In this document: positions 1 through 21,586 of the stretch, one piece after another
Layout of the letters: each line of letters starts with the position of its first letter
Numbering within the stretch: position 1 is the first letter of the stretch
Virus record (IMG/VR): IMGVR_UViG_3300020469_000302
Location: 1 to 21,586 of that record
Length of the DNA stretch: 21,586 bases
Source: a virus
Direction: 5' to 3' (one strand)
Notes under the pieces: model-generated
The model's database searches: none
Told to the model about the DNA's origin: nothing
The model's input: the letters and a program-made list of their open reading frames with translations, nothing else
Position numbers and translations under genes: made by a program

Positions 1-2
1 TA

Positions 3-776
3 AAATTATTTAGATATTTGTATGAATTAAATTTAAAAGACGGAAGAAATCGTAATAGAGAGTATGGCGGCGATAATGTATTTAATAAAGGACTGTATCA
101 ATCAAATCCATTAACGTCTGAAGATGATTTTATTAATCAACACAATTTTGGTTTAGATTCAAGTGTTAGCAATACCACATATCCAATAAAAAGTTTAGAC
201 TTATTTTTAATACATGGCGGGCAATACAATTTAATTAGATTTGTTCATCCAAAAATAATTTCTATGGATCATGATGTTCTATCATACGAATCAAGTGTGC
301 CAGTTGAACTTGGCATGCAGTTTGCATATGAAACAGTAATTTACGAAACATTAAATCACAGTATGGCAAATGCAAAAGATGTTACAATAGATTTTGATGA
401 AATACTTCAAAACAGTTTAACAATGCCAGCAACTCCTGGAATAACAATTGCACCAGAAGGTAGCAATGGTACATTTGAACCAAACAATGATTGGAGTGAG
501 GTAGCGGCAAATTTATCAACTTTTATTACATCAGAATCTCAAGGAGATGGGTCAACACTCCAAGAAGGAAATGTAGTGATAAGCACAGATGGTAACGTAG
601 CAAATACAATATCAACACATTCTGTAATCGCAAGTACAGGTTCAGTTTTTGGTAAAGCGTATTCTAGTGAACCTGACAAACTGTCAGCAAAAAATTATAC
701 TTCTAATCCTTCTTCAAATTTGGATAGTGATAAACTATCAAAAAATTTAAATGGTAACGTATCAAGGATAGTATAA
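3..776 (+). CDS. Tail-tube-fold baseplate/tail protein, 5' truncated
   Basis: The reading frame is open to the left edge with no stop, so this is the 3' part of a longer gene. The first possible start is a TTG at 18, with no ribosome binding site visible, and is probably not the real start. About 258 residues are visible. The segment from roughly residue 65 to 115 (window numbering from TTG) reads like the domain shared by T4 tube and tube-cap proteins (gp19/gp48/gp54): a basic VHPKI strand, then ISMDHDVLSYESS, then a MQFAYETVIYE strand. The C-terminal half is Ser/Thr/Asn-rich and low in charge, as in virion proteins. Placement just before gp4 fits a late structural module. I cannot decide between a gp48, gp54 or other tube-like paralogue; fold-level confidence is moderate. 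Confidence 0.5.
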   Translation, partial: KLFRYLYELNLKDGRNRNREYGGDNVFNKGLYQSNPLTSEDDFINQHNFGLDSSVSNTTYPIKSLDLFLIHGGQYNLIRFVHPKIISMDHDVLSYESSVPVELGMQFAYETVIYETLNHSMANAKDVTIDFDEILQNSLTMPATPGITIAPEGSNGTFEPNNDWSEVAANLSTFITSESQGDGSTLQEGNVVISTDGNVANTISTHSVIASTGSVFGKAYSSEPDKLSAKNYTSNPSSNLDSDKLSKNLNGNVSRIV

Positions 777-787
777 GGTATTGTAAC

Positions 788-1228
788 ATGGCAAATGAAA
801 GTACAAAACAAATAGCAAGAGTAGGTGGCGAAAGCAAAATAGTAGCACTGTTTGGAAATGTTTTTTCATCAATACAAAATGCACAACCAAATCTTAAAGC
901 ACAAGATGTAACAACACTAATATTAAATCAATATGGAAATCGACAAACTCAAATATCACCAGCACAGTATGATCAAATACTTGCTACTTTTACATCAAAT
1001 GGCGTAGAACAACAATTAGCAAAAGCATACGCATTGCTTTGTATTGATTCTATTAAAACTTTAAATATATCTTTTGATCAATTGTTTGTTTCAAAAAAAG
1101 ATCCAATATCATTTTCAGATTTAGGTTTAACACTAATTAATCATTACAGACCAGTTACCAGTCAAATTGGTACAGCACTATCAGTTTCACAAACACCAAA
1201 TCACGTTAAAAGAATGATTGCTTATTAA
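788..1228 (+). CDS. Conserved-looking small structural-module protein, function unknown
   Basis: A 146-residue protein whose ATG lies 11 bases after the preceding stop, with AAGG about 8 bases upstream as a weak ribosome binding site. The sequence is mostly helical by composition, begins MANESTKQIARVGGES and has a GNVFSSIQ segment. It has no signal peptide, membrane segment or cysteine cluster. Position between the tube-like protein and gp4 suggests a virion or assembly role. I do not recognise the family; it is shorter than T4 gp53 and I saw no gp53 similarity. Confidence 0.7.
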   Translation: MANESTKQIARVGGESKIVALFGNVFSSIQNAQPNLKAQDVTTLILNQYGNRQTQISPAQYDQILATFTSNGVEQQLAKAYALLCIDSIKTLNISFDQLFVSKKDPISFSDLGLTLINHYRPVTSQIGTALSVSQTPNHVKRMIAY

Positions 1229-1330
1229 ATGACATTAGGTATGGCATTGTTGCTGTGCGTTGTGGGTACACCATTGTCAATTGGTGTTATGATATTAATA
1301 ACTTATTTAGAAAACAAAAACAACAAATAG
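1229..1330 (+). CDS. 33-residue single-pass membrane micro-protein
   Basis: A short frame whose ATG starts on the base after the previous stop (TAA at 1226-1228, ATG at 1229). It encodes 33 residues. Residues 3-27 form one hydrophobic segment rich in L, V, I and G, followed by a polar tail ending ENKNNK. This is the usual topology of a small phage membrane peptide. Immediate stop/start adjacency suggests translational coupling to the gene before it. Reality rests on coding potential, the fit in an otherwise empty 118-base gap, and the hydrophobic pattern. Function is unknown. Confidence 0.5.
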   Translation: MTLGMALLLCVVGTPLSIGVMILITYLENKNNK

Positions 1331-1332
1331 TG

Positions 1333-1340
1333 GTTAAATA
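1333..1340 (+). promoter_or_regulatory. T4-like late promoter (GTTAAATA) for gene 4
   Basis: GTTAAATA differs from the T4 late -10 element TATAAATA at two positions and is followed by CTACTG and then the ATG of gene 4. The 6-base gap puts the predicted transcription start at or one base before the start codon. Confidence 0.5.
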
Positions 1341-1346
1341 CTACTG

Positions 1347-1775
1347 ATGGCTTATTTTAAAAGAGGACAATTTGAACCAAAAAATCCACGCAAGTATGTG
1401 GGGCAACGAGTACCAATATATAGATCAAGTTGGGAAGCAGTGTTTATGCAGTTCTGTGACACTAATCCAAATATTATTGCATGGTCGAGTGAGCCAGTTA
1501 AAATACCATATCGTAATCCGTTTACAGGCAAGTATACTGTGTATGTACCGGATTTCTTAGTACAGTATCTAACTAAAAATGGAAAGCCCCGTGCTGAAAT
1601 GATTGAAGTCAAGCCAAGGGCACAAACAATTCAAGAAGCGGCCAAGAACGCCAAAGACAGAGCCACTATTGCATTGAATAGAGCAAAATGGAAAGCGGCC
1701 GGAGAATGGTGTAAACGCAAAGGCATAATGTTTAGAATACTCAATGAAGACTCTATATATAAACTAAAGAGATAA
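1347..1775 (+). CDS. 4: Head completion protein gp4 (TnsA-like nuclease fold)
   Basis: 142 residues, close to T4 gp4 (about 150). T4 gp4 acts in head completion after DNA packaging, before tail joining; the family resembles the TnsA N-terminal endonuclease domain. Visible features: YRSSWEAVFMQFCD (about residues 25-38) and the nuclease-like core with VPDFLVQY (about 67-74) followed by MIEVKPR (about 85-91), the D...E-x-K arrangement of PD-(D/E)XK enzymes. The C-terminus is basic (GEWCKRKGIMFRIL). It starts just after a late promoter with no Shine-Dalgarno, so it may be translated from a leaderless mRNA. Its stop overlaps the late promoter for the next gene. Confidence 0.88.
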   Translation: MAYFKRGQFEPKNPRKYVGQRVPIYRSSWEAVFMQFCDTNPNIIAWSSEPVKIPYRNPFTGKYTVYVPDFLVQYLTKNGKPRAEMIEVKPRAQTIQEAAKNAKDRATIALNRAKWKAAGEWCKRKGIMFRILNEDSIYKLKR

Positions 1776-1778
1776 ATA
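1771..1778 (+). promoter_or_regulatory. T4-like late promoter (GATAAATA) for gene 16
   Basis: GATAAATA matches the late consensus at 7 of 8 positions and overlaps the gp4 stop codon. The ATG of gene 16 lies 30 bases downstream, so this transcript would have a leader of about 25 nt with a weak TTAGG before the start. Confidence 0.6.
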
Positions 1779-1808
1779 ATTATATACGTAGTTAATTAGG
1801 TTATAACA

Positions 1809-2396
1809 ATGACAGATGAAAATAAAATACCAATGGAAGATATTATTGATCAAGCCAAGGAGGGTTTAGATGAGCCAAAAAATGAAACCAAAAATGAAGA
1901 TACGCAACATCAAAACAGCGGCGAAGAAATTCAAACGGGGGCAAGTGACCAAGTTGAAGAAACGAGCAATGAGGACACCTCTGCAACACCAATCTTAAAA
2001 GCAATTACTACTGCTGAAAAAATAGATCGTGCATTACCCCAAGTTACTGGGTTAGATGCTGAAGATCAAGACATGGATACATACGCCACAGAAGCCATGA
2101 AATCATACCAAGATCTAATGAATTTAGGAATGAATGTAGAAGTTAGACATTCTGGAAAGTTATTTGAAGTAGCGTCTACAATGCTTAAAAATGCTGTTGA
2201 AGCCAAAAATGCTAAATTAGAAAAGAAATTACGCATGGTTGAGCTACAATTAAAGAAACAAAGAGTAGATCAAATGAACAACACAGGGGATAGTTCAGCA
2301 GATATTGTTGAAGGAGAAGGCTATGTTGTGGGTGATCGTAATGAACTGTTAAAGCAGATCTTAGACAGAGTAGATAACGATAAAAAAGATAAATAA
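1809..2396 (+). CDS. 16: Small terminase subunit gp16
   Basis: 195 residues (T4 gp16 is 164). The small terminase binds concatemeric DNA and regulates gp17 during packaging. The N-terminal 70 or so residues are very acidic and low complexity. The core from about 95 to 160 follows the T4-like DNA-packaging family pattern: YATEAMKSYQDLM, a GMNVE helix, FEVASTMLKNAVEA, then a Lys-rich helix. It ends with the typical YVVGDRNELLKQIL motif. The central helices are the oligomerisation coiled coils of this family. The long acidic N-terminal extension is unusual compared with T4. Gene 17 lies downstream after six small genes, not directly adjacent as in T4. Confidence 0.78.
   Translation: MTDENKIPMEDIIDQAKEGLDEPKNETKNEDTQHQNSGEEIQTGASDQVEETSNEDTSATPILKAITTAEKIDRALPQVTGLDAEDQDMDTYATEAMKSYQDLMNLGMNVEVRHSGKLFEVASTMLKNAVEAKNAKLEKKLRMVELQLKKQRVDQMNNTGDSSADIVEGEGYVVGDRNELLKQILDRVDNDKKDK
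2388..2395 (+). promoter_or_regulatory. T4-like late promoter (GATAAATA)
   Basis: GATAAATA overlaps the end of gene 16 and lies 19 bases before the ATG at 2415. The predicted start leaves a leader of about 14 nt that contains AGGA at 2403-2406, so this transcript would carry a normal ribosome binding site. Confidence 0.6.
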
Positions 2397-2414
2397 AAAT
2401 ATAGGAAACTAACG

Positions 2415-2984
2415 ATGAAAACATTTAAACAATATCTAGCAGAAGCAGTAAAAGAGTACACATTCAAAGTAAAAATTGCTGGTGTACTTGAAGATTCACA
2501 TTTAGATGCAATGGAATTAGCATTGGCTCCGTACAATGTAGTAAAAGTAGGTAGTCCTAAAAAAACTATCATGCAGGAACATCCTTTGGATTTTCCAGCA
2601 AACGTTACCAACACAGAAGTAACTATAATTGAAGTTACAACTGCTATGCCAGTTTCATATCAAACATTATCAAGACATTTATCAGATCATATGGGTTTAC
2701 CATATGAATCAGTTGTTGTTTGCCACGAAGGTGATCCTTTACAGGCTGAACAAGACAAACTAAATGCTGAAAAAACAGATGATGCATATGAGCCAATTAT
2801 GGGTCAGGATTATAAAAAAGAAGATTCAGAAGATGCTTCTAGTATTGTACATAGTGAAGATTCAAAACAAAGTTTTTTAAAAGGACTTGCTAAAGCACAA
2901 AAAAATGAAGGCGGCAATGTCGAAGTAGTAACTGGGTTACAAGAATCAAAAGTTACAAGTTATATTGCGAAAGGGAAAAAGTAA
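2415..2984 (+). CDS. Conserved late protein with T4-like capsid-targeting N-terminus
   Basis: 189 residues. The start is supported by AGGA 8 bases upstream within a late transcript. The N-terminus MKTFKQYLAEA closely resembles the capsid-targeting peptide of T4 internal proteins (MKTYQEFIAEA in IPI), which the gp21 protease removes after an L/I-x-E site. LAE followed by A at residues 8-11 fits that rule. The rest has an alpha/beta-looking domain (about 16-108: YTFKVKIAGV, PKKTIMQEHPLDF, EVTIIEVTTAMPVS, YESVVVCHEGD) and an acidic, flexible C-terminal half. The main domain is of a type I associate with marine T4-like phages, without known function. Inference: it is placed in the prohead core and processed or injected; no direct proof here. 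Confidence 0.75.
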   Translation: MKTFKQYLAEAVKEYTFKVKIAGVLEDSHLDAMELALAPYNVVKVGSPKKTIMQEHPLDFPANVTNTEVTIIEVTTAMPVSYQTLSRHLSDHMGLPYESVVVCHEGDPLQAEQDKLNAEKTDDAYEPIMGQDYKKEDSEDASSIVHSEDSKQSFLKGLAKAQKNEGGNVEVVTGLQESKVTSYIAKGKK

Positions 2985-3304
2985 TGTCAGACAAAATTAA
3001 TGAGAATGATGCATTGTCAAGATTACTTTCACTTGCTGGTATTCAGCCAACTATTCTTGTTGTACAACCAAAAGCAGATGAAGTTGCACAAGAAGAAGTA
3101 GAAGTAGAAGTTGCTGGTACTAATGAACCAAATGAGCAAGAGATTGACATTGATGCATTAACACCATCTAAAAAAGCACAACGTAAGTTAAAGTTTGTTC
3201 CTGCAAGATCAGGAGACAATCCAATTGCAACTGATGAATCTTTAGAAGATAAAGAATCACGTTTAGCAGAAGAATACGAAAGTTTCAAAAATGAACAACA
3301 GTAA
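2984..3304 (+). CDS. Small acidic protein, function unknown
   Basis: 106 residues; its ATG shares one base with the preceding stop (TAATG), so it is probably translationally coupled. The N-terminal DALSRLLSLAGIQP segment could form a helix. The middle is strongly acidic and Glu/Val-rich (EEVEVEVAG) and the region 60-75 is basic (SKKAQRKLKFVPAR), followed by an acidic C-terminal helix. No cysteines, membrane segment or known motif. It may be an assembly or scaffold-like accessory protein, but that is only a guess from charge and context. Confidence 0.65.
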   Translation: MSDKINENDALSRLLSLAGIQPTILVVQPKADEVAQEEVEVEVAGTNEPNEQEIDIDALTPSKKAQRKLKFVPARSGDNPIATDESLEDKESRLAEEYESFKNEQQ

Positions 3305-3371
3305 GTGCGAAAAGTGTAATCACAATTGTCCAGAAGAATGTAAACATTGTGACTGCGGTTGTTGTAAGTAG
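3291..3371 (+). CDS. 26-residue cysteine-rich micro-protein
   Basis: A short ATG frame overlapping the end of the acidic gene by 14 bases and the start of the membrane-protein gene. It encodes 26 residues with eight cysteines at 6, 9, 13, 17, 20, 22, 24 and 25, plus His 11 and 19. The spacing (C-x2-C-x3-C-x3-C-x2-C-x-C-x-C-C) is like a metal-binding or metallothionein-like peptide. Cysteine is rare in neighbouring proteins, so eight in 26 codons is unlikely to be chance. No Shine-Dalgarno is visible; it may be coupled to the overlapped gene. Confidence 0.5.
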   Translation: MNNSKCEKCNHNCPEECKHCDCGCCK

Positions 3372-3720
3372 TTTATTTTTTTTCCTGCTAATCAAACATT
3401 GCGTTATTGATTTATGGATTCAAAGTCTATTAACCTATAATCAAAAAAAATCTATATATACTTCTTTGTCAGCACAGGTGCATTATGTACAACATGGGCT
3501 TGGTACAATATTTGTGTTGTTGTTTTTTATACCATGGCCGTTGGCAATTCTTTTTGGTATATGTGATTATCTAGCACATTGGCATATTGATTTCCTAAAA
3601 AGTTCAACACAACAAAGACTTGGTATAAAATCTCCATCAAAAGGTTATTGGTTTTTATCGTCAATTGACCAAGGTCTACATTATCTAACTTATTATATTA
3701 TCATATTACTTGTATCCTAA
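3349..3720 (+). CDS. Polytopic membrane protein (DUF3307-like)
   Basis: 123 residues from a GTG start that overlaps the Cys-rich frame; no ATG exists upstream in this frame. Hydrophobic segments lie at about 2-18, 47-73 and 106-122. Conserved-looking His/Asp/Gln motifs flank them: KHCVIDLWIQS near the N-terminus, HYVQHG before the second segment, AHWHIDFLK after it and DQGLHYLTYY before the last. This pattern resembles the DUF3307 membrane family. It sits in the inner membrane by prediction; function is unknown. A holin-like or host-membrane role is possible but not shown. Confidence 0.65.
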   Translation: MTAVVVSSLFFFLLIKHCVIDLWIQSLLTYNQKKSIYTSLSAQVHYVQHGLGTIFVLLFFIPWPLAILFGICDYLAHWHIDFLKSSTQQRLGIKSPSKGYWFLSSIDQGLHYLTYYIIILLVS

Positions 3721-3725
3721 TATAC

Positions 3726-3733
3726 AATAAATA
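3726..3733 (+). promoter_or_regulatory. T4-like late promoter (AATAAATA), 5 nt from ATG
   Basis: AATAAATA followed by ATTGT and then ATG. Seven of eight bases match TATAAATA. In T4 this element spans about -13 to -6, so the predicted first transcribed base is the A of the start codon. Confidence 0.65.
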
Positions 3734-3738
3734 ATTGT

Positions 3739-4002
3739 ATGCGTATTAGAGATCAAATACTCAAAGATGCAAGAATAACAACAATAAAAGTGTATTATTG
3801 GATGCCGGATTACGAAAGTATCCTACAATTATTCATGTGGCAATTTTCAGACATACCTCCACAGTTTCCAAAAGCACACAAATTTTTAAATCATTGGAAT
3901 GACAATGTTGAAGCACGTATAAAGGACATATATTTGTCATATGCAGGTAATTTAAAACAAGTAGAATTCAATCCTGTGGACGATATATTCAATATCCATT
4001 AA
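3739..4002 (+). CDS. Conserved small protein upstream of gene 17, function unknown
   Basis: 87 residues, beginning MRIRDQIL directly after a late promoter, without Shine-Dalgarno. It is aromatic-rich: YYWMPDYESILQLFMWQ (about 19-35) followed by FPKAHKFLNHWND (about 43-55) and a C-terminal FNPVDDIF. I recognise this YWMPDY...ILQ...W pattern from small unannotated proteins of marine T4-like phages. No catalytic motif or membrane segment. Its own late promoter and position just before gp17 suggest a packaging or morphogenesis role. It is not gp16, which is encoded upstream. Confidence 0.7.
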   Translation: MRIRDQILKDARITTIKVYYWMPDYESILQLFMWQFSDIPPQFPKAHKFLNHWNDNVEARIKDIYLSYAGNLKQVEFNPVDDIFNIH

Positions 4003-4018
4003 GTACGCATTTAATTAG

Positions 4019-4026
4019 TATAAATA
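4019..4026 (+). promoter_or_regulatory. T4-like late promoter (perfect TATAAATA) for gene 17
   Basis: An exact TATAAATA, then CAAGT, then the ATG of the large terminase. The 5-base gap predicts a leaderless transcript. No Shine-Dalgarno lies between the promoter and the start. Confidence 0.8.
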
Positions 4027-4031
4027 CAAGT

Positions 4032-5627
4032 ATGGCACGTAGTAAAGTTTTAGAAGGTAACCTAGTCAAAAAAGCATATTCAAAATCTAAATACACAGCA
4101 GAACAGTTACAAGATTTAAAACTGTGTGCAGATTTAGAAACAGGTTACATACATTTTATGAAATCACACATGTGGATTCAACATCCTACTAAAGGACGTA
4201 TGAAATTTGATCCATATCCATTTCAAGAAGAACTATTAGAAACATACAATGGATATAGATTTGCTATTGCCATGTGTGCAAGGCAAACAGGTAAGACAAC
4301 CTGTGCGGCAGGATACTTATTATGGTATGCAATGTTTCATCCAGACACATTAATATTAATTGCGGCACACAAATATCAAGGTGCACAGGATATTATGCAA
4401 CGTGTAAGGTTTGCATATGAAGAAACACCAGATTATATTAGGTGTGGAGTAACAAGTTATAATAAAGGGTCGATGGATTTTGATAATGGGTCAAGAATTA
4501 TAGCACAAACAACCACAGAAACAACAGGACGTGGTATGTCCATATCAATGATATACATGGATGAGTTTGCATTCGTAGAACCACAGAACAAAGCACGAGA
4601 ATTTTGGACTTCACTATCTCCAACATTGTCAACAGGTGGTAAATGTATTATTACATCAACACCAAATAATGATGATGATCTATTTGCACAGTTGTGGAGA
4701 GGTGCTAACAAATTACAAGACGAATATGGTAATCCAGCAGATGTAGGACTGAATGGTTTTAGACCGAAGTTTGTACACTGGAGTCAGCATCCTGAAAGAA
4801 ATGAAGTATGGGCCAAAGAAGAAAGACAACGTATAGGTGAAGAAAGATTTAGACGTGAGCATGAATGTGAATTTATCGCATTTGATGAAACACTTATTGA
4901 TGGTATAAAATTAGTTACACTACAAGGCACACAACCACTAGTGAAACACGGACAAGTACGTTGGTATCAAAAAGTACAAAAAGGCAATACATATCTTGTA
5001 TCATTAGACCCGTGTTTGGGTACAGGTGGCGATTATGCCGCTATACAAGTGTTTAGCCTACCAGATTTTAAACAAGTTGCTGAATGGCAACATAATAAAA
5101 CGCCTATCCAGGGGCAAGTTAGAGTTATGCACAGCATACTCAAAGAACTAGATCAACAGTTACGAGCAAGTGGTACACCAAATCCAGAAATATATTGGAC
5201 AATTGAAAATAATACACTTGGTGAAGCCGCAATTGTAACTGTTGACGAAATGGGCGAAGATAAATTTCCTGGATATTTCTTACATGAACCACGTAGAGGC
5301 GGTCAACAACGTAGAGTAGTGCGTAAAGGTTACAATACAACCAACAAGTCAAAAGTCACTGCTTGTTCAAAACTTAAACAGTGGGTAGAAGCTGATAAAA
5401 TCACACTATATTCTAAACCACTCATAAGAGAACTTAAAGTATTTGTAGCAAAAGGCAATTCTTTTGAAGCAAAATCAGGAGAGCATGACGATTTAGTATC
5501 AGCATTGTTGTTAGTAGTGCGTATGACAGACTTTTTAACCAAATATGATGCTACAATGGAAGAGTCATTGGGTGCCAAACTTGAAGATGATGATGATTGG
5601 CAAGATCCAATGCCCATAATTATATAG
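4032..5627 (+). CDS. 17: Large terminase subunit gp17 (packaging ATPase/nuclease)
   Basis: 531 residues (T4 gp17 is 610; the N-terminal region is shorter). It pumps DNA into the prohead and cuts the concatemer. ATPase domain: Walker A ARQTGKTT (about 83-90), Walker B MIYMDE (D177, E178) and the coupling motif TSTPNNDDD (about 208-216). Nuclease domain (RNase H-like): SLDPCLGTGGD with D326, TIENN with E392 and SGEHDDLVSA with D486/D487, matching the T4 acidic triad D401/E458/D542. The C-terminus is short and acidic (DDDDW). The start follows a perfect late promoter by 5 bases. Confidence 0.96.
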   Translation: MARSKVLEGNLVKKAYSKSKYTAEQLQDLKLCADLETGYIHFMKSHMWIQHPTKGRMKFDPYPFQEELLETYNGYRFAIAMCARQTGKTTCAAGYLLWYAMFHPDTLILIAAHKYQGAQDIMQRVRFAYEETPDYIRCGVTSYNKGSMDFDNGSRIIAQTTTETTGRGMSISMIYMDEFAFVEPQNKAREFWTSLSPTLSTGGKCIITSTPNNDDDLFAQLWRGANKLQDEYGNPADVGLNGFRPKFVHWSQHPERNEVWAKEERQRIGEERFRREHECEFIAFDETLIDGIKLVTLQGTQPLVKHGQVRWYQKVQKGNTYLVSLDPCLGTGGDYAAIQVFSLPDFKQVAEWQHNKTPIQGQVRVMHSILKELDQQLRASGTPNPEIYWTIENNTLGEAAIVTVDEMGEDKFPGYFLHEPRRGGQQRRVVRKGYNTTNKSKVTACSKLKQWVEADKITLYSKPLIRELKVFVAKGNSFEAKSGEHDDLVSALLLVVRMTDFLTKYDATMEESLGAKLEDDDDWQDPMPIII

Positions 5628-5632
5628 GAAAG

Positions 5633-5640
5633 CATAAATA
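5633..5640 (+). promoter_or_regulatory. T4-like late promoter (CATAAATA), 5 nt from ATG
   Basis: CATAAATA, then CTTGT, then ATG of the 724-residue gene. A GGAA sequence lies further upstream, but before the motif, so it would not be part of the late mRNA. Confidence 0.75.
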
Positions 5641-5645
5641 CTTGT

Positions 5646-7820: not shown

Positions 7821-7833
7821 TAATCCTCCCAAT

Positions 7834-7869: not shown

Positions 7870-7894
7870 CTCTAAAATTTCTCCAAAAAAATAC

Positions 7895-7923: not shown

Positions 7924-7925
7924 AG

Positions 7926-8003: not shown

Positions 8004-8011
8004 AAAACATT

Positions 8012-9046
8012 ATGGCGACTTTAGCAGAAATAAGAGCAAAACTTCAAGAACAAGAAGTAAAACGTTCACCAAATAGTTCAGGAGGCGACAACGCAATTTA
8101 TCCGTTCTGGAACATTCCTGAAGGCACAACAGCAACACTAAGATTTTTATCAGATAAAGATCCAAACAATACATTCTTTTGGGTAGAAAGACAAATGATC
8201 AGATTACCATTTGCTGGTATCAAAGGATCATCTGAAGCAAAACCAACTACAGTACAAGTTCCTTGTATGGAGATGTGGGGAGAACCATGTCCAGTATTAA
8301 GCGAAATTCGTCCATGGTTTAAAGACCCAAGTTTAGAAGACATGGGTAGAAAATATTGGAAAAAACGTTCATATATTTTCCAAGGTTTTGTTGTTAACTC
8401 TCCAATGGAAGAAGATTCAACACCAGAAAATCCAATTAGACGTTTTGTAATTAATCCGTCAATCTTTAACATCATTAGATCAGCATTGATGAATCCAGAT
8501 ATGGAAGATCTGCCAACTGATGTTGAAAAAGGTAGAGACTTTAAATTAACCAAAACTCAAAAAGGTGGTTACGCAGATTATTCAACATCAACTTGGTCTT
8601 TCAAAGAAAGAACAGTAAGTGATAGTGAACGATCAGCAATTGACTCTCATGGACTACATAATTTAGGCGATTATCTTCCTAAGAAACCTTCTGCAGAAGA
8701 AGTAAAAATAATTGCAGAAATGTTTAAAGCATCTGTTGATGGTGAATTATATGATGAAAGCAGATTTGGTCAACATTATAGACCAGCTGGCATGGCATCA
8801 TCACCAAGAACAAATAGCAATAGTGCAACAACTACAACAGCGGCACCAACAGCGGCACCAGTGGCTCCAGTAGCACCTGCGGCACCAGTTGTTGAAACTG
8901 CGGCACCAGTTGTTGAAACTACTACTGCTACAGCACCTGCGGCACAGCCAGAAGTGGCAACTGCTACAGCAACAGCAACAGATGATAAGTCAAAAGCATC
9001 AGCAGATGATATTTTGGCTATGATTAGAGCTAGACAAAGTAAGTAA
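8012..9046 (+). CDS. 32: Single-stranded DNA-binding protein gp32
   Basis: 344 residues (T4 gp32 is 301). It binds ssDNA cooperatively in replication and recombination and partners UvsX, UvsY and helicase. The ATG has AGGAG 8 bases upstream. The N-terminus MATLAEIRAKLQEQE is the cooperativity region; the OB core spans about 25-245 with YPFWNIPEGTTATLRFLSD, FFWVERQMIRLPFAG, CMEMWGEPCPV, YIFQGFVV and FVINPSIFNIIRSAL. Of the four T4 zinc ligands (H64, C77, C87, C90) only two Cys seem kept here, so zinc is probably not bound. The C-terminal 80 residues are an Ala/Pro/Val/Thr linker with a tandem repeat, ending in a helix SADDILAMIRARQSK in place of the long acidic T4 tail. Confidence 0.93.
   Translation: MATLAEIRAKLQEQEVKRSPNSSGGDNAIYPFWNIPEGTTATLRFLSDKDPNNTFFWVERQMIRLPFAGIKGSSEAKPTTVQVPCMEMWGEPCPVLSEIRPWFKDPSLEDMGRKYWKKRSYIFQGFVVNSPMEEDSTPENPIRRFVINPSIFNIIRSALMNPDMEDLPTDVEKGRDFKLTKTQKGGYADYSTSTWSFKERTVSDSERSAIDSHGLHNLGDYLPKKPSAEEVKIIAEMFKASVDGELYDESRFGQHYRPAGMASSPRTNSNSATTTTAAPTAAPVAPVAPAAPVVETAAPVVETTTATAPAAQPEVATATATATDDKSKASADDILAMIRARQSK
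8879..8920 (+). repeat. Two exact 21-bp tandem repeats in the gp32 linker
   Basis: The 21-bp unit GCGGCACCAGTTGTTGAAAC plus T occurs at 8879-8899 and again at 8900-8920 without mismatch, encoding AAPVVET twice. An exact in-frame duplication suggests recent linker expansion by slippage or unequal recombination. Confidence 0.9.
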
Positions 9047-9061
9047 AATCGTATATAGTAT

Positions 9062-9085
9062 TAGTGCATGAGCAATCATGCACTA
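9062..9085 (+). promoter_or_regulatory. Intergenic hairpin between gene 32 and uvsX
   Basis: TAGTGCATG at 9062-9070 pairs with CATGCACTA at 9077-9085, a perfect 9-bp stem with a 6-nt AGCAAT loop. There is no T-run after it, so it is not a standard terminator. It may stop 3' decay of gp32 mRNA or attenuate read-through into uvsX. The uvsX AAGGAG follows at 9094. Confidence 0.6.
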
Positions 9086-9104
9086 TTACAGACAAGGAGA
9101 AATT

Positions 9105-10172
9105 ATGGTAAGACCATTTGACGTAAGTAAATTTAGAAAGTCAATAACAAAAAGCATTGGTGGTATTTCTACAGGTTTTGATTCTGATCCAGACACATGG
9201 ATATCAACAGGAAACTACTGTCTAAACTATTTGATTAGTGGCGACTTTAATAGAGGTATACCGCTAGGCCGTGTAACAATGCTGGCAGGTGAATCAGGTT
9301 CTGGTAAAAGTTTGATTGCTTCTGGTAACATTATTAAAAATGCACAAAAGCAAGGCATATTTTGTATTGTGTTTGATTCAGAAAATGCATTAGATGAAAA
9401 TTGGTTACGAGCATTAGAAGTAGATACATCACCAGAAAAATTAATGCGTATTAATGTTGCAATGATTGATGATGTAGCAAAAACTATTTCTGAGTTTGTA
9501 TCAAGTTATAGAGCAGACTACGGATCTTTAGAGCAAGGCGACAGACCAAAAGTTATGTTTGTAATTGATTCATTGGGTATGTTGTTAACTCCAACAGATG
9601 TTGCACAATTTGAAAAAGGTGATATGAAAGGTGATATGGGTAGAAAACCAAAAGCCTTAACAGCACTTGTAAGAAATTGTGTTAATATGTTTGCTGAATT
9701 AAATTTAGGATTAGTTTGTACGAATCACACATACGCATCACAAGATATGTTTGATCCAGATGATAAAATTAGTGGCGGACAAGGATTTGTATATGCAAGT
9801 TCAGTTGTGGTTGCTATGAAAAAATTAAAACTAAAAGAAGATGAATCAGGAAACAAAATATCCGATGTTACTGGTATTAGATCAGCAGTTAAAGTAATGA
9901 AAACAAGATTTAACAAACCTTTTGAATCAGTACAGGTAAAAATTCCATATGAAGCAGGAATGGACCCGTACAGTGGTTTAGTTGATCTCTGTGAGAAAAA
10001 AGGATTGTTGGTCAAAGAAGGTAATAGACTCAAATACATTGATCGTTTAGGTAAAGAACACAAACATTATAGAAAAGATTGGACAGGTGAAAATCTTGAT
10101 CTTATAATGGCAGAGTGGGATAATGTCAAGTCGGAGGTAGAAGCAGAAGAACCTGCTAAAGCGGAGGCATAA
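9105..10172 (+). CDS. uvsX: RecA-like recombinase UvsX
   Basis: 355 residues from the preferred ATG at 9105, which has AAGGAG 5 bases upstream. An in-frame ATG at 9078 lies inside the intergenic hairpin with no ribosome binding site and adds nine non-conserved residues. UvsX (T4: 391) forms filaments on ssDNA and drives strand exchange with gp32 and UvsY. Walker A GESGSGKS (about 62-69), Walker B MFVIDSLGML (D155), and loop regions FEKGDMKGDMGRKPKAL and NHTYASQDMFDP typical of UvsX. The C-terminus is acidic (EVEAEEPAKAEA). It is followed after 3 bases by a small gene and then uvsY. Confidence 0.95.
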   Translation: MVRPFDVSKFRKSITKSIGGISTGFDSDPDTWISTGNYCLNYLISGDFNRGIPLGRVTMLAGESGSGKSLIASGNIIKNAQKQGIFCIVFDSENALDENWLRALEVDTSPEKLMRINVAMIDDVAKTISEFVSSYRADYGSLEQGDRPKVMFVIDSLGMLLTPTDVAQFEKGDMKGDMGRKPKALTALVRNCVNMFAELNLGLVCTNHTYASQDMFDPDDKISGGQGFVYASSVVVAMKKLKLKEDESGNKISDVTGIRSAVKVMKTRFNKPFESVQVKIPYEAGMDPYSGLVDLCEKKGLLVKEGNRLKYIDRLGKEHKHYRKDWTGENLDLIMAEWDNVKSEVEAEEPAKAEA

Positions 10173-12033: not shown

Positions 12034-12039
12034 AGTGTT

Positions 12040-15913: not shown

Positions 15914-16491
15914 ACATAGCAAAAACAGATATTGATATTGATGTGAAGAACAGGGATGTTTTATTAGAAAAACTAAAACACATACCTGCCAGTATTATAA
16001 ATGATGGTGAAATTAAAAAACACAATACTGGAGTTTATTTTACTGATATACCAACACATCCGTTTACTAATTCTGCAAACATTGATTACAAACAAGCAGA
16101 AGATAGAGGTTATTTTAAATTAGATGTATTAAACGTAAGTGTGTATGAACAAGTTAAAAATGAAAAACATCTACAAGAATTAATTGATCAAAAACCTGAT
16201 TGGAGTTTGCTAGAACACAAAGAAATTGTTGAACAATTGTTTCATATACATAATCATTTTGATATTGTTAATAAATTAAAACCAAAGTCAGTTGAAGAAC
16301 TGGCGGCAGTATTAGCAATAATACGTCCTGCTAAAAGAAACTTGCTTAATGCAACTTGGTCAGAAATTCATAATAGTGTTTGGATAAAACCACAAGATAA
16401 TACTTACTACTTTAAAAAGAGTCATGCTATTGGATATGCATTAGCAATTTGTGTACAAATGAATTTAATGTCTAACTGTCAGACTTTTTAA
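15907..16491 (+). CDS. Miniature DnaE-like (Pol III alpha palm/fingers) protein
   Basis: 194 residues, far smaller than DnaE (about 1100). Its motifs run in DnaE order. TDIDIDVKNRD (D8, D10, D12) resembles the PDFDVDF...RR region that holds E. coli alpha D401 and D403. KHNTGVYF (38-45) resembles the KHAGGVVI segment. GYFKLDVLNV (68-77, D73) resembles LVKFDFLGL, which holds D555. LAAVLAIIRP (132-141) and FKKSHAIGYA (169-178) match the RPGP and FNKSHAAAYA segments of DnaE. I recall similar proteins in marine phages. PHP, thumb and beta-binding parts are missing, so independent polymerase activity is doubtful. It ends convergently with the leftward gene, overlapping by 20 bases. Confidence 0.72.
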   Translation: MVNIAKTDIDIDVKNRDVLLEKLKHIPASIINDGEIKKHNTGVYFTDIPTHPFTNSANIDYKQAEDRGYFKLDVLNVSVYEQVKNEKHLQELIDQKPDWSLLEHKEIVEQLFHIHNHFDIVNKLKPKSVEELAAVLAIIRPAKRNLLNATWSEIHNSVWIKPQDNTYYFKKSHAIGYALAICVQMNLMSNCQTF

Positions 16492-16843
16492 CCAATTGAA
16501 TTTGGCGTCTTTTAATTCTTTTCTTTACAATATTATTTAAACTTGTAGTTGGGCCAAAAACCATTTTGGTATCTTTGGTAGTAAATGTTTTTAGCCAATT
16601 TTGATATATATGAAAATCACCTGCTAAAAATATGTTGATTGGAATTATTCTATTTGATTCCCACCACCAAACATCACCTAATCTTAAAAATTCAGTTCTT
16701 AGTTCTTCAGTTGGGATATCATCATACACATAGATGCTAGTTACAAAATCATCTTGATTTTGCAGTATACCTACGTATTCGTTAACACCGTGTTTCATAC
16801 ACGATAAAAAAGGAAATTTTTCTGCTAGTTCGTTATAGTCCAT
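16472..16843 (-). CDS. Conserved marine T4-like phage protein, function unknown
   Basis: 123 residues on the minus strand. It has the pattern of a small protein I know from cyanophages: FPFLSCMKHGVNEYVGILQNQD near the N-terminus, then YVYDDIPTEE, GDVWWWESNRIIPINIFL (about 56-73) and a basic C-terminus FGPTTSLNNIVKKRIKRRQIQLVKK. The WWWESNR-IPIN core is distinctive. A sigma70-like promoter lies just upstream on the minus strand; the leader would be about 12 nt without Shine-Dalgarno. No enzymatic motif. Function is unknown; expression is probably early, opposite to the flanking genes. Confidence 0.8.
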   Translation of the reverse strand: MDYNELAEKFPFLSCMKHGVNEYVGILQNQDDFVTSIYVYDDIPTEELRTEFLRLGDVWWWESNRIIPINIFLAGDFHIYQNWLKTFTTKDTKMVFGPTTSLNNIVKKRIKRRQIQLVKKSDS

Positions 16844-16861
16844 GTGTTACTTTTTCTTTAC

Positions 16862-16890
16862 ATTATACTTTCAATACTTCTATTTAGCAA
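16862..16890 (-). promoter_or_regulatory. Leftward sigma70-like promoter
   Basis: On the minus strand TTGCTA (16890-16885), 17 bases, then TATAAT (16867-16862). Predicted start near 16855, 12 bases before the ATG of the leftward gene. Its -35 box directly abuts the rightward late promoter at 16891. Confidence 0.6.
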
Positions 16891-16898
16891 CATAAATA
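16891..16898 (+). promoter_or_regulatory. T4-like late promoter (CATAAATA) for the structural protein/dehydrogenase unit
   Basis: CATAAATA, 7 of 8 to the late consensus. The predicted transcript starts near 16904 and includes AAGGA at 16911-16915 before the ATG at 16925. An upstream ATG at 16902 opens a frame of 8 codons ending across the main start, so coupling is possible. Confidence 0.7.
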
Positions 16899-16924
16899 TA
16901 TATGAAGTTTAAGGAAAACATAGT

Positions 16925-17713
16925 ATGACAGTAACCGTATATGTATATGACGATACTCATACAGTGATAGTAAATACAAGTGCAAGACAAGGTAGTACAA
17001 CAATGTATGATAAAACTATAAAATTGTATCAAGGTATTGATAACACTGTGAAGTTTGCGTTAAAAGACAACGACAGAAAAGCAGTTAATTTAACTAATTT
17101 AACTGTAACGTTTAACGTAGTAGACGCAACTACAAACGAATCAATACTTAAAAGACCATTAACAGTGTCAAATGCTGTGCAGGGTCTTGCTCAGATTAAT
17201 TTACCAGCATCAGATTTAGATAATATATCCGGTGGATTTTACAACTATTCATTATATACTACAAACACTAGTTCAGAACAACAAGTGGTGTTTACAGACC
17301 TCAATGAAGCGGCAAATGGCACTTTAGAAGTAGTTGAAGGTGTTGCTTCAAGTCCAAGAATAACTGAAGAAATGTCAACATTTACTTATGATACAGCACA
17401 ATGGTATAATTCAAATGCAGTTTCTGGAGCAACAGAAAGAAATTTAACTTCTTCAAATCACACTATTGCAACTTATACTTCTTCGTTTGATGGATTATAC
17501 AAAGTCCAAGGTTGCATGGATGCCACAGCAAGTTTAGATGATGCAAATTGGTTTGATATTACATTAGACAATGGAAATGCATCGGTAACAGTTACAAATG
17601 CAACAGCAATAGAATCATACAACTTTACCACTCAAGCAAAATGGATTAGAGTAGCATATGATCCAGATACAAGTAACAGTGGTACCTTTGATAAAGTCTT
17701 ATTAAGGAATTAA
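16925..17713 (+). CDS. Probable virion structural protein with BppU-like N-terminal domain
   Basis: 262 residues. AAGGA lies 9 bases before ATG in a late transcript. After a short Thr/Val-rich strand region, residues about 30-140 follow the baseplate upper protein (BppU) pattern: IKLYQGIDNTVKFALKDNDRK, NLTVTFNVVDATTNESIL, GLAQINLPASDLDNISGGFY and YSLYTTN. The C-terminal 120 residues form a second beta-sandwich-like domain (YKVQGCMDATASLDDANWFD, AKWIRVAYDPD), as in neck, collar or fibre-associated proteins. Composition is Thr/Asn/Ser rich with few Lys, typical of virion beta proteins. Likely part of the tail, neck or baseplate; the exact location is not visible. Confidence 0.72.
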   Translation: MTVTVYVYDDTHTVIVNTSARQGSTTMYDKTIKLYQGIDNTVKFALKDNDRKAVNLTNLTVTFNVVDATTNESILKRPLTVSNAVQGLAQINLPASDLDNISGGFYNYSLYTTNTSSEQQVVFTDLNEAANGTLEVVEGVASSPRITEEMSTFTYDTAQWYNSNAVSGATERNLTSSNHTIATYTSSFDGLYKVQGCMDATASLDDANWFDITLDNGNASVTVTNATAIESYNFTTQAKWIRVAYDPDTSNSGTFDKVLLRN

Positions 17714-17714
17714 A

Positions 17715-18866
17715 ATGCCAATCCAGTCAATGGAGATTAAAGAAATCAAAACACAAGGTTTTGAAAGAGTAGTTCACGGTTATCACGAAGCAAGTAATTT
17801 CAGTGCCTACATAGCAATTCACACATTAAAAAATGGTCCTGCTTTTGGTGGCATACGTTACTGGAACTACAAAGACAATCATCGACCTTATCTTGATGTA
17901 CAAAAACTTGCAGAAGCAATGACAGAAAAATGCATGGTAGCAGGTATAAAATTAAGTGGTGGAAAATCAGTAGTGCAACAATCCTATCATAGAGAAATAG
18001 GACAATGTGGTGTTGAAGAAAAAAGAATTTTTCCTTATCTAGGAGAACTTATAAATCATCTCAATGGTGATTACTATGGCGGATTAGATGTTGGATTTGA
18101 TTACAAAATGTTACAACGTTTGAGAAATTATACAGAATATACAACAACATATTCTGATCCAGATATTGGCGGATCATGTACTGCTTACAGTGTTTACAAT
18201 GCAATGTGTGGAGCAGTAAAATATGTGTTTGATAAAGACTCACTTGAAGGATTATCTGTAGCCATAAAAGGTTTAGGAAAAGTTGGATACCAATTGGTCA
18301 ACTATCTTGTTGAAGACGGTGTAAAGTTATATGTTGCTGATAGTAATACAGCACAGATTGATTTATTGAAACCAATAATGGCAAAATATCCTTTTACAAT
18401 AAATGTTGTTAGTACAGATGATATACACAAACAAGAGGTTGATGTATATTCTCCTTGTGCATTAGGAAACGATATCAAACTTTCAAAAATACCTGATATG
18501 AAATGTAAAATTATTTGTGGTGCGGCCAATAATCAATTAGATATAGTAGATACTGGGTTGGCTAAAAAACAATTACTTGATAGTAAAATCACTTACGTTC
18601 CAGATACCCTGGCAAATGTTGGAGGAGTTTTTAGGTCAGCAGGAGTCATACTAAATTCAAGAAATGAAGAGGAATCTTTTAAATTAATACAGACAGTACG
18701 TGATAGAACTATAAAAATATTAGAATTTGCCACCCAAGCAAACATAAATCCAGCCGATGTATGCACGGAAATAGGACAAGCAATAACAGGTAAACCAAAT
18801 AGATTTAAAATGGGTCTAAGTGGTATAAGTGGTGTACGTAGTGGAAATAATACTTACAGGATTTAA
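17715..18866 (+). CDS. Leucine/phenylalanine-type NAD-dependent amino-acid dehydrogenase
   Basis: 383 residues, close to bacterial leucine dehydrogenase (about 365). Catalyses reversible oxidative deamination of an amino acid to a 2-oxo acid, releasing ammonia. Visible: GPAFGGIRYW (41-50), MTEK with K72, LSGGKSV with catalytic-type K84, GGLDVG with D125 (equivalent to the catalytic Asp of the family), GGSCTAYSVYNAM, DSLEGLSVAIKGLGKVG with a Rossmann GxGxxG (186-191), VADSN with D209 (NAD preference), YSPCALG (255-261), CGAANNQ and YVPDTLANVGGV. These align with leucine dehydrogenase motifs and all key residues seem intact. The gene starts 1 base after the structural gene stop, with AAGGA before ATG, so it should be expressed late. 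Substrate (Leu, Val, Phe or other) is undecided. Confidence 0.88.
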   Translation: MPIQSMEIKEIKTQGFERVVHGYHEASNFSAYIAIHTLKNGPAFGGIRYWNYKDNHRPYLDVQKLAEAMTEKCMVAGIKLSGGKSVVQQSYHREIGQCGVEEKRIFPYLGELINHLNGDYYGGLDVGFDYKMLQRLRNYTEYTTTYSDPDIGGSCTAYSVYNAMCGAVKYVFDKDSLEGLSVAIKGLGKVGYQLVNYLVEDGVKLYVADSNTAQIDLLKPIMAKYPFTINVVSTDDIHKQEVDVYSPCALGNDIKLSKIPDMKCKIICGAANNQLDIVDTGLAKKQLLDSKITYVPDTLANVGGVFRSAGVILNSRNEEESFKLIQTVRDRTIKILEFATQANINPADVCTEIGQAITGKPNRFKMGLSGISGVRSGNNTYRI

Positions 18867-18893
18867 TTGACTTTTTGGCAAAAGTGTTATAAT
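18867..18893 (+). promoter_or_regulatory. Sigma70-like promoter for the primase gene, close to ATG
   Basis: TTGACT at 18867-18872 and TATAAT at 18888-18893, spacing 15; an overlapping TAATAT at 18890 gives 17. The predicted start is 0-3 bases before the primase ATG at 18903, and there is no Shine-Dalgarno. Confidence 0.6.
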
Positions 18894-18902
18894 ATATAAC
18901 AC

Positions 18903-19892
18903 ATGGAACTACAAAACACAATCATTACACACATGCCAGGCAAAAGGAAAAAGACGCCTAGTGGCTGGACAACAATAAATTGTCCAATGTGTACTACAAA
19001 TGGCCAATCAAGACCTGATAAAAGATCACGTGGTGGATTTAGATTTATTGACGGGGTAGTTTATCATTGTTTTAACTGTGGATTCAGTACAAGTTATAAA
19101 CCAGGCAAAACATTTGGTAAAAAAATGACAGGACTATTACGTGGCATTGGTGTTCCAGATAATGAAATAAGAAGACTACAACTTTTGGCTATACGTGAAA
19201 AAGAAAATAATCCAAACGTAGAAGAAAAACCAAAGCCAAAAGTCAGTTGGAGAGAAATTCAATTACCAAAAGGATCAAAACCTTTAATAGAAATAATAAA
19301 GCAAGACACTCCATCAGAAGATGCAATATGGGTGTACAAACATATTATTGATAGAGGATTAGATCATCATGGTGATTTTTACTGGTGCAATGATACATAT
19401 TTAGATTTAAATAGAAGATTTATTGTGCCATTTTATTACAATGGCAATACAGTTGGTTATACATCAAGAATAATTGACAACAACAAAAACAAGCCAAAGT
19501 ATTTTACTAACTCACAACCTAATTATATGTATAATATGGATGTGTTGAGTAAGCAAAGAAAATATTTGATTGTGGTAGAAGGTGTGCTAGATGCGTTAAG
19601 TATTGATGGACTAGCAGTGCTACACAACAAACTAAATCAAGTGCAAATTGATTTGATAAAAGAATTTGATGGAGAAATTATTGTGTGTCCAGATAGAGAT
19701 GCGGCAGGATCAACGTTAATTGATCAAGCAGTTGACAATGGATGGGCAGTTAGTTTTCCGCCATGGCAGGATCACATCAAAGACTGTGCTGATGCTGTAA
19801 AACACTATGGACAGTTGTTCACAGTAAAAAGTATTATTGACAGTCGGGTAAATAATAAAACAAAAATAGAAGTATTAAGAAAAATTGCGTAG
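18903..19892 (+). CDS. 61: DNA primase gp61
   Basis: 329 residues (T4 gp61 is 342). Makes RNA primers for lagging-strand synthesis with helicase gp41. N-terminal zinc-binding domain: C27, C30, C56 and C59 in CPMC...HCFNC. Toprim-type core: LIVVEGVLDALS with E226 and CPDRDAAG with D264 and D266. RRFIVPFYYNGNTVGYTSRII (171-191) is the usual strand pair before the Toprim core. The helicase gene begins 1.6 kb downstream, separated by three metabolic genes. Confidence 0.93.
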   Translation: MELQNTIITHMPGKRKKTPSGWTTINCPMCTTNGQSRPDKRSRGGFRFIDGVVYHCFNCGFSTSYKPGKTFGKKMTGLLRGIGVPDNEIRRLQLLAIREKENNPNVEEKPKPKVSWREIQLPKGSKPLIEIIKQDTPSEDAIWVYKHIIDRGLDHHGDFYWCNDTYLDLNRRFIVPFYYNGNTVGYTSRIIDNNKNKPKYFTNSQPNYMYNMDVLSKQRKYLIVVEGVLDALSIDGLAVLHNKLNQVQIDLIKEFDGEIIVCPDRDAAGSTLIDQAVDNGWAVSFPPWQDHIKDCADAVKHYGQLFTVKSIIDSRVNNKTKIEVLRKIA

Positions 19893-19900
19893 GAGAAATA

Positions 19901-20506
19901 ATGGCAACTTTAGATAAAGACAACAAGAAAAAATCTGGTCCTGATAAACCACAACAACCACTACAACCAGGAATGATGATGTGGGAGGCTGGAATAATGT
20001 ATTTCAGTGATGGCTTTGACAGTAATTCAACCAAACCAGTGATACAAGCAATAATTGAAAAAAACTTATTGCCTGATTCAGTAAGACCAAAAGAATTAAC
20101 ATTGGTAATTAATTCGCCAGGTGGACAAGTACACTCAGCATTTGCATTAATAGACACAATGAAAGGGTCAGCGATTCCTGTGAAAACAGTAGGACTTGGT
20201 ATGATTGCATCATGTGGACTATTAACATTTATGAGTGGTACAAAAGGTCGCAGAGTTATTACACCAAACACATCTATACTATCACATCAATACAGTTGGG
20301 GCAGTGTGGGTAAAGAACATGAATTGTTTGCAAGAGTAAAAGAGTTTGAATTGAGTACAGCAAGGATGATAGATCATTATAAAAAGTGTACTGGTTTAAG
20401 CGAAAAGAAAATTAGAGAAATACTACTACCTGCTGAAGATGTTTGGTTAAGTGCCAAAGAAGCAGTTAAGTACGGTATTGCAGATAAAATTGTTTCAACT
20501 TATTAA
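19901..20506 (+). CDS. ClpP-like serine protease
   Basis: 201 residues, the size of ClpP. ClpP is the peptidase barrel that works with AAA+ unfoldases. AGGAG lies 5 bases before ATG. Visible: LVINSPGGQVHSAFALIDTM (about 68-87), VGLGMIASCGLL with nucleophile S104, ILSHQYSWG with H129, and LPAEDVWLSAKEAVKYGIADKI with D180 as the third residue. The N-terminus is Pro/Gln/Lys rich and differs from cellular ClpP, so ClpX docking may differ. It is not the T4 prohead protease gp21, which is another family. It may join host ClpX/ClpA or act alone on host or virion proteins. Confidence 0.9.
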   Translation: MATLDKDNKKKSGPDKPQQPLQPGMMMWEAGIMYFSDGFDSNSTKPVIQAIIEKNLLPDSVRPKELTLVINSPGGQVHSAFALIDTMKGSAIPVKTVGLGMIASCGLLTFMSGTKGRRVITPNTSILSHQYSWGSVGKEHELFARVKEFELSTARMIDHYKKCTGLSEKKIREILLPAEDVWLSAKEAVKYGIADKIVSTY

Positions 20507-20517
20507 GGAGTACTTGT

Positions 20518-20832
20518 ATGAATGAAGAAACTAAAAACTTTATACAAAGCAATATTGAAAAAAACAATATATGTTTGTTTATGAAAGGTACACCAGATGC
20601 ACCGCAATGTGGATTTTCTATGGCAGTTGCAAATATACTAAAAGGTTTAGAAGTTGAGTTTACAGGTGTAAATGTATTAGCGGATCAAAATCTTAGAGAA
20701 GGTATTAAAGTTTTCAGCGATTGGCCAACTATACCACAACTTTATGTTAATGGAGAATTTATTGGTGGTTGTGATATTATAAAAGAAATGTATCAAGATG
20801 GTGAATTGCAAACAGTGTTAGGTATAAAATAG
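20518..20832 (+). CDS. Monothiol glutaredoxin (Grx4/GrxD type, CGFS)
   Basis: 104 residues, typical for single-domain monothiol glutaredoxins, which carry and deliver [2Fe-2S] clusters using glutathione. K23 in FMKG, active-site CGFS at 31-34, the cis-Pro segment WPTIPQLYVNGEF and the GGCDII motif are all present. AAGGAG lies 7 bases before ATG. Unlike T4 NrdC, which is a dithiol thioredoxin/glutaredoxin for ribonucleotide reductase, the CGFS site points to Fe-S handling. The stop overlaps the thyX GTG by one base. Confidence 0.93.
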   Translation: MNEETKNFIQSNIEKNNICLFMKGTPDAPQCGFSMAVANILKGLEVEFTGVNVLADQNLREGIKVFSDWPTIPQLYVNGEFIGGCDIIKEMYQDGELQTVLGIK

Positions 20833-21464
20833 TGGAAGTTACACTTATTGATAAAATGGGATCAGACTTAACTGTAGTGAATGCCGCTAGAGTTAGTTTT
20901 GGAAAAAACAAAGAGTTGTTTGATGCATCAGATGAAAAGTTAATTTCATTTCTAGCAAGGCATAATCATTGGTCTCCGTTTGCACATTGTAGTGTGCAGT
21001 TTAGAATTAAAGCACCAATTTTTGTTGCAAGACAGTTAGTAAAGCATCAAGTTGGTTTAAGTTGGAATGAAATCAGCAGACGTTATGTTGATTACGAACC
21101 TGAATACTATATGCCTAAAAACTGGAGACTACGAGCTGAAGATAAAAAACAAGGTAGCAGTAGTGAAACAATTGAGTACGATATCGCTAATACAATAAAA
21201 AATGCTAATACAACCTACAATGATATGCTGGCCAAAGGCATTGCTCCTGAATTAGCAAGAATGGTATTGCCACAAAATATGATGACAGAATGGTATTGGA
21301 GTGGAACATTATACGCATTTGCTAGGGTATGTGAATTAAGATGTGCTGAAGATACTCAAGCAGAAACAAGAGAAATAGCAGATTCAATTGATGAATTTTG
21401 TAATACAGAGTTTCCATACAGTTGGAAACATTTAAGACTTGAAAAACAAAAAGAAAATGTGTAG
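20832..21464 (+). CDS. thyX: Flavin-dependent thymidylate synthase ThyX
   Basis: 210 residues from GTG sharing one base with the preceding stop. ThyX makes dTMP from dUMP using FAD, NADPH and methylene-THF, supplying an AT-rich genome. Visible: FLARHNHWSPFAHCSVQFRIKAP in the N-terminal part (about 40-62), VARQLVKHQVGLSWNEISRRYVDY around the ThyX signature (65-88) and RMVLPQNMMTEWYWSGTL near the C-terminal dUMP site. The classical RHRxxSxxxxSxR signature reads KHQVGLSWNEISRR here: both Arg of RHR are changed, and one extra residue appears between them and Ser. Confidence 0.93.
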   Translation: MEVTLIDKMGSDLTVVNAARVSFGKNKELFDASDEKLISFLARHNHWSPFAHCSVQFRIKAPIFVARQLVKHQVGLSWNEISRRYVDYEPEYYMPKNWRLRAEDKKQGSSSETIEYDIANTIKNANTTYNDMLAKGIAPELARMVLPQNMMTEWYWSGTLYAFARVCELRCAEDTQAETREIADSIDEFCNTEFPYSWKHLRLEKQKENV

Positions 21465-21470
21465 TATAAT
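21465..21470 (+). promoter_or_regulatory. TATAAT box just before the gp41 start
   Basis: TATAAT lies 3 bases before the ATG at 21474. The best -35 candidate, TTGAAA at 21439-21444, is 20 bases away, which is too far for a good sigma70 promoter, and the predicted start would fall inside the start codon. Listed because of its resemblance to the other ATG-abutting promoters. Confidence 0.25.
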
Positions 21471-21473
21471 ATA

Positions 21474-21586
21474 ATGAATGATTTAAAAGATTATAATGAA
21501 GATTTACAAAAACTATTTTTAGAGTTTTGTGCAACAGATCCTGAACTGTTTGTCAGAGTAAAAAATATTGTTAAAGTAGAATATTT
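21474..21586 (+). CDS. 41: Replicative helicase gp41, 3' truncated
   Basis: The frame starting at ATG 21474 runs to the right edge (37 complete codons). LQKLFLEFCATDPELFVRVKN resembles the N-terminal domain of marine T4-like gp41 (DnaB-family 5'-3' helicase), where a DLQ-LFLEMML-D-E-FVRVQ-I pattern is usual. Placement near primase gp61 supports this. Only the extreme N-terminus is present, so no ATPase motif can be checked. The gene starts 9 bases after the thyX stop without a clear Shine-Dalgarno. Confidence 0.68.
   Translation, partial: MNDLKDYNEDLQKLFLEFCATDPELFVRVKNIVKVEY

Follow-up and report, generated by a model that had tools for sequence, protein, structure and literature searches.

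Strict and inherited absence of the type II recognition word GCWGC across groups of uncultured marine phages with probable SAR11 hosts

Elimination of restriction sites is a known anti-restriction strategy of phages. A survey of prokaryotic viruses (PMC6286503) sets its threshold at an observed-to-expected ratio below 0.1; in roughly a tenth of viral genomes, it reports, elimination is complete or nearly so. The word GCWGC (GCAGC or GCTGC) is recognised by the type II enzymes TseI (PMC6329791) and ApeKI (PMC8557920). Here we describe its absence from a 21,586-base stretch of viral DNA (the window), which makes up the whole of IMG/VR record IMGVR_UViG_3300020469_000302 and which, to judge from its terminase, is part of the genome of an uncultured T4-like relative of the phages PA5oct and MIJ3. 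We show that this absence is strict and inherited through whole groups of relatives, and consider it likely that GCWGC was lost because a type II endonuclease of the hosts, putatively SAR11 bacteria, cuts the unmethylated word. A first-pass annotation, made from the letters of the window and a list of its open reading frames (ORFs), had noticed the missing word, named it correctly as a type II site and proposed evasion of a host enzyme.

Exact counts over positions 1..21586, on both strands, returned no GCAGC and no GCTGC, along with 23 GCGGC and three GCCGC, in full agreement with that annotation. No 5-mer of the window is more depleted than GCAGC/GCTGC (0 versus 22.5 expected under a maximal-order Markov model), and a codon-preserving shuffle (2000 runs over the synonymous codons of 30 main ORFs, 20,580 coding bases) gave an expectation of 21.3 ± 2.0 sites with a range of 14–28, against none observed. 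GCA is indeed the favoured alanine codon (301 of 460, with another 92 GCT), and our recount of the Ala-Ala pairs was identical to the earlier one: all 23 begin with GCG (20) or GCC (3), never with GCA or GCT. The pattern can be seen in the alanine-rich tail (8840..8943, plus strand) of an ORF at 8012-9046, which from sequence and gene order we take to be gp32-like; it contains five GCGGC (8840, 8852, 8879, 8900 and 8939), and GCA or GCT at any of them would have created GCWGC. The window is also low in three other words that the first-pass annotation had overlooked (given as observed/expected, like all such pairs of counts below, and here by shuffle): GCGC 0/10.0, AGCT 7/53.8 and TCGA 9/23.4.

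The same count was extended to related phages, with the window terminase as query; of more than 597 matching loci the best 80 were kept, which together with the window make 81 records. GCWGC is absent from 22 of these 80 loci, and so from 23 of 81 records with altogether 540,332 bases, the records being fragments that overlap in part; the remaining 58 loci hold at least one site. For ten of the 22 site-free loci the whole contig was read. One of the overlapping records, G001, matches the window at 99.9% identity across 6,088 aligned bases. When the tree was labelled by count (zero versus at least one site), the zero label required two changes on a quick tree, compared with about 20 when labels were shuffled, and on a more careful tree the site-free records formed groups of 15 (the window with its 14 nearest relatives, L002–L014 and L016), six (L044, L045, L052, L065, L071 and L075) and two (L078 and L079). 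The tree is midpoint-rooted and subject to the usual warning about long branches, which bears on the number of origins. One avoider contig (G009, 107.6 kb) has no GCWGC where 105 are expected; by the measure of the survey cited above (PMC6286503; a ratio below 0.1 at an expectation of at least 15), both the window (0/21.3) and this contig (0/105) count as cases of elimination. GCAGC/GCTGC again heads the depleted 5-mers in G009, G007 and G005, and these three pooled with the window have no site against 238 expected. The codon signature is equally sharp: none of the 379 Ala-Ala pairs in nine further avoider records has GCA or GCT as first codon, compared with 199 of 226 pairs in the non-avoiding relative G019 (162 kb), which has 230 GCWGC sites and whose lowest listed palindrome stands at 0.57 of expectation.

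The depletion is limited to the exact word. In the window, G009, G007 and G005, the one-base neighbours of GCAGC, GCTGC excepted, occur at 0.88–1.62 of expectation. The rise of GCSGC in avoider records lies mainly in the Ala-Ala frame. From the code table, a synonymous escape from GCWGC should be possible in every reading frame. Other members of the wider family have lost other type II words. A distant relative, G012 (131,485 bases; L106–L112, containing L015), has 0 CTAG against 262 expected and 56 AGCT against 324, and so shows site elimination in still more marked form than the window; G015 lacks three words at once (AGCT 0/36, CTAG 0/38 and GCWGC 0/21). When palindromes are considered only where 12 or more are expected in a locus, the 81 records show zeros for GCWGC in 17, AGCT in eight, CTAG in five, and ACGT and GTAC in one each.

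Because the absence is strict and group-wide, the neighbouring words are undepleted and sister lineages drop other words, selection against a type II site is well supported, and the synonymous avoidance proposed in the first-pass annotation stands. Its further proposal, a host restriction enzyme as the agent, is the best explanation we can offer, and one point in its favour is that the words dropped by sister records (CTAG and AGCT) are again type II words. A type II restriction endonuclease in the hosts would cut unmethylated GCWGC; a site-free genome would be uncuttable, and purifying selection would remove each new GCWGC, largely by way of synonymous changes that leave Ala-Ala written as GCG-GCN or GCC-GCN. 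The hosts would be SAR11 (Pelagibacterales), a group in whose genomes a variety of type II systems, one of them of Bsp6I type, is encoded.

The suggestion of SAR11 hosts follows from the SAR11-like glutaredoxin of the window (20518..20832, plus strand; PF00462), which makes such hosts probable for the clade. Its best 80 matches among genome contigs, taken from a longer set in a collection where SAR11 is abundant, all belong to Pelagibacteraceae or Pelagibacterales at 69–79% identity. Against 337 alphaproteobacterial genomes, 302 of which gave a match, the three best were Pelagibacteraceae (166–171 bits), followed by a single genome whose family is unknown (160 bits), with the listed rest at no more than 140 bits, G041 of the Pelagibacteraceae set among them at 139 bits. 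The 80 SAR11 glutaredoxin loci have GCWGC at 33/71; these loci repeat one conserved region and were not used as evidence. Host assignment by a second gene, a Glu/Leu/Phe/Val dehydrogenase (17715-18866; PF00208 and PF02812), was attempted and abandoned. The neighbouring genes for ClpP-like protease (19901..20506, plus strand; PF00574, E 3.6e-32) and ThyX thymidylate synthase (20832..21464, plus strand; PF02511, E 2e-50) are closely related to genes of the phage records G007 and G005 and were left out of host inference.

Restriction systems may be more frequent in these candidate hosts than has been reported. Of 397 Pelagibacteraceae genomes, 72 have a C5 methyltransferase (PF00145) match above the cut-off, 65 of them at E <= 1e-20, and we studied 61 methyltransferase loci, drawn from 60 of these 65 strong genomes plus one from G032. 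They contain 67 methyltransferase ORFs (none was recognised in L288), which cluster at 45% identity into 30 groups, of which the largest have eight and seven members. We picked 20 neighbouring ORFs by eye for a Pfam scan, in which seven exceeded the cut-off of a nuclease family (Bsp6I two, SinI two, Eco47II, MvaI/BcnI and HNH one each), one gave a weak sub-threshold hit and twelve gave no match; three more ORFs, picked from matches to the Bsp6I family (PF09504), again matched that family. Type II cassettes, with C5 methyltransferases beside Bsp6I, SinI, Eco47II and MvaI/BcnI endonucleases, occur among loci L230–L290. SAR11 has been described in the literature as nearly devoid of restriction systems, with a published figure of one genome in more than 100 that carries a restriction-modification system (PMC7029224). 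This figure looks too low to us, because 65 of 397 genomes have a strong C5 methyltransferase, some of them beside nucleases, though a methyltransferase alone does not make a restriction system.

On rescanning, all five Bsp6I-type endonuclease ORFs were above the PF09504 cut-off, and all five adjoin methyltransferases of the seven-member group. Their alignment with a plasmid relative reveals a common invariant Asp and Lys, which, as a motif reading, would fit a PD-(D/E)XK site. A methyltransferase on a Streptococcus plasmid, 48.5% identical to that of L248, adjoins a gene annotated as Bsp6I family, and a related methyltransferase on a Bacillus plasmid has no neighbour with this annotation; the SAR11 Bsp6I-type endonuclease itself gave no match when compared with plasmids. 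NCBIfam yielded no specificity for the SAR11 enzymes, and the closest solved structure to the methyltransferase by sequence, M.HhaI, leaves its site unsettled.

Several observations weigh against restriction by SAR11 enzymes as the cause. The search for an enzyme in candidate hosts, proposed in the first-pass annotation, turned up C5 methyltransferases and type II systems, but none of these enzymes is proven to be specific for GCWGC; the search did not seek ApeKI/TseI relatives by sequence. The known Bsp6I-type systems act on GCNGC (PMC9465063, PMC2824730), and the window phage keeps GCSGC. PF09504 occurs in only five of 397 Pelagibacteraceae genomes versus one of 337 in the class sample, counts too few to claim enrichment, and GCWGC shows no clear depletion in the five carriers (1.05 of expectation, versus 1.18 in non-carrier loci). 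Two cultured SAR11 phages keep the word over 50 kb each (HTVC008M 65/59, Mosig 44/50). The host assignment rests on one gene; none of 12 candidate bacterial stretches for the dehydrogenase was a relative. Finally, the phage records are incomplete.

Some of these points would sit more easily with restriction in marine hosts other than SAR11, the glutaredoxin having been acquired from SAR11 by another route. In its favour, HTVC008M and Mosig, grown on SAR11, do not avoid GCWGC, the glutaredoxin is the one window gene for which a SAR11 likeness was shown, and GCWGC methylation has been described in Chloroflexi genomes from Lake Biwa (PMC6329791). We nevertheless regard this alternative as unlikely, given that Pelagibacteraceae supplied the three highest-scoring glutaredoxins in the sample of 337 Alphaproteobacteria.

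The agent could also be carried by the phages themselves, in the form of a GCWGC-specific nuclease directed at the DNA of hosts or competitors, with the phage genome spared for want of sites and not through base modification. Inheritance of the absence through whole groups would fit, and most of the clade's genome lies outside the sequence read. PHROGs and Pfam scans of ten ORFs from avoider records brought up two nuclease-like ones, both in G009. The HNH-like ORF (85518-85889, or 13518-13889 of L100; PHROG 2255 at E 5e-9, Pfam HNH below cut-off) is found family-wide, at 44–81% identity in the longer matches, in avoiders as well as non-avoiders, including G019 and G012 (48–49%), which speaks against it. 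The PDDEXK_15 ORF (65922-66437, E 3e-25) is in no other phage record compared. In favour, a 222-residue ORF without family match (G009 80270-80938) is present in six avoider records and absent from G012 and G019. No Bsp6I endonuclease (PF09504) was matched in any of 27 phage records, all fragments, and the joint loss of up to three words (G015) would demand several phage nucleases. We consider a phage-borne nuclease very unlikely, and hold out equally slim prospects for its corollary, a self/non-self recognition by sequence absence in which sister lineages are tuned to CTAG and AGCT. No sign of protection of phage DNA by its own methylation emerged: neither C5 (PF00145) nor N6/N4 (PF01555) methyltransferases gave a match in the same 27 fragmentary records.

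A mutational or editing bias that converts GCWGC to GCSGC or other words, with no selection by a nuclease, is barely credible. The window offers it one argument, a preponderance of GCG over GCC (20 versus 3) in Ala-Ala pairs though GCC is commoner elsewhere, as if GCA had undergone A-to-G change; in G009, however, the two codons are nearly balanced (GCG 50, GCC 43). Conversion should also lift GCSGC outside the Ala-Ala frame, where counts are near expectation (window 3/1.5, G009 9/7.4, G005 2/2.8, G007 5/3.0), with a small excess in G003 (5 versus 1.7) and G004 (4 versus 1.1), and bias would hardly leave an exact zero over 540 kb. The packaging or nicking signal entertained in the first-pass annotation is rejected, because such a signal needs the word to be present and GCWGC is absent rather than placed.

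The remaining content of the window is that of a T4-like phage whose genome is probably large, like those of its PA5oct/MIJ3 relatives. The terminase large subunit (4032..5627, plus strand), which served as query for the relatives and the tree, is 54.5% identical to that of Pseudomonas phage MIJ3 over 98% of its length, and equally 54.5% to that of PA5oct. Upstream lies a TnsA-like nuclease domain (1347..1775, plus strand; PF08722, E 4e-23), probably the head-completion protein. The candidate RecA/UvsX-like protein at 9078..10172 (plus strand), a name we assume from sequence and gene order, has a match in 19 of 26 related records.

In L003, 91.8% identical to the window over the aligned part, AGCT is near normal (17/20.9) and GCGC is present. 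Pairwise comparison of the two gave two shared AGCT sites, one found only in the window and 12 only in L003; outgroup polarisation placed no losses in the window lineage and ten gains in L003, so the idea that this lineage had recently purged AGCT was rejected. Among cultured phages, the Pelagibacter phage HTVC008M (147 kb; L204, L206 and L207) is low in TCGA (2/121), CGCG (1/68), CASTG (10/158), AGTACT (0/40), GAATTC (0/24) and GATC (83/405). Agrobacterium phage Atu_ph07 (L203, 50 kb of 490 kb) has no CCWGG against 35 expected, and its annotated stretch also encodes a putative type II DNA modification enzyme. Methylophilales phage Melnitz-2, a marine T4-like phage (L348, 50 kb), lacks GGWCC (0/22), CGCG (0/25) and CGWCG (0/19) and is low in GATC (15/182).

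Words missing from a phage genome can be a record of the restriction enzymes of its hosts, and in the present case the absence of a single word characterises entire groups of uncultured marine phages, probably phages of SAR11. What makes the case valuable is the clarity of its inherited signal and its bearing on restriction in SAR11. If our interpretation is true, restriction would truly matter in the interplay of SAR11 with its phages, and words absent from a genome could aid the host assignment of uncultured phages. Among the best-ranked publications on restriction-site avoidance, GCWGC, SAR11 jumbo phages and pelagiphages, none dealt with this clade in its title or the start of its abstract.

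Set beside known systems, the window resembles the eliminations described in the survey (PMC6286503), with an orthodox type II site far under expectation in a double-stranded DNA phage; unlike those cases, the loss is common to whole groups of uncultured relatives, and host and enzyme are putative. Both T4-like SAR11 phages share strong palindrome loss with the window clade, in Mosig of ACGT (0/63) and GATC (8/149, in 50 kb), but both keep GCWGC in the 50 kb tested of each. The Bsp6I-type systems are represented in five Pelagibacteraceae genomes by the same endonuclease family with a neighbouring C5 methyltransferase; their known members act on GCNGC, whereas the phage avoids GCWGC alone, and the SAR11 enzymes are putative cutters of either word. 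For ApeKI and TseI, the recognition word is identical to the one missing here. The loss of GCWGC is a strong case of a known anti-restriction strategy, common to whole groups of relatives.

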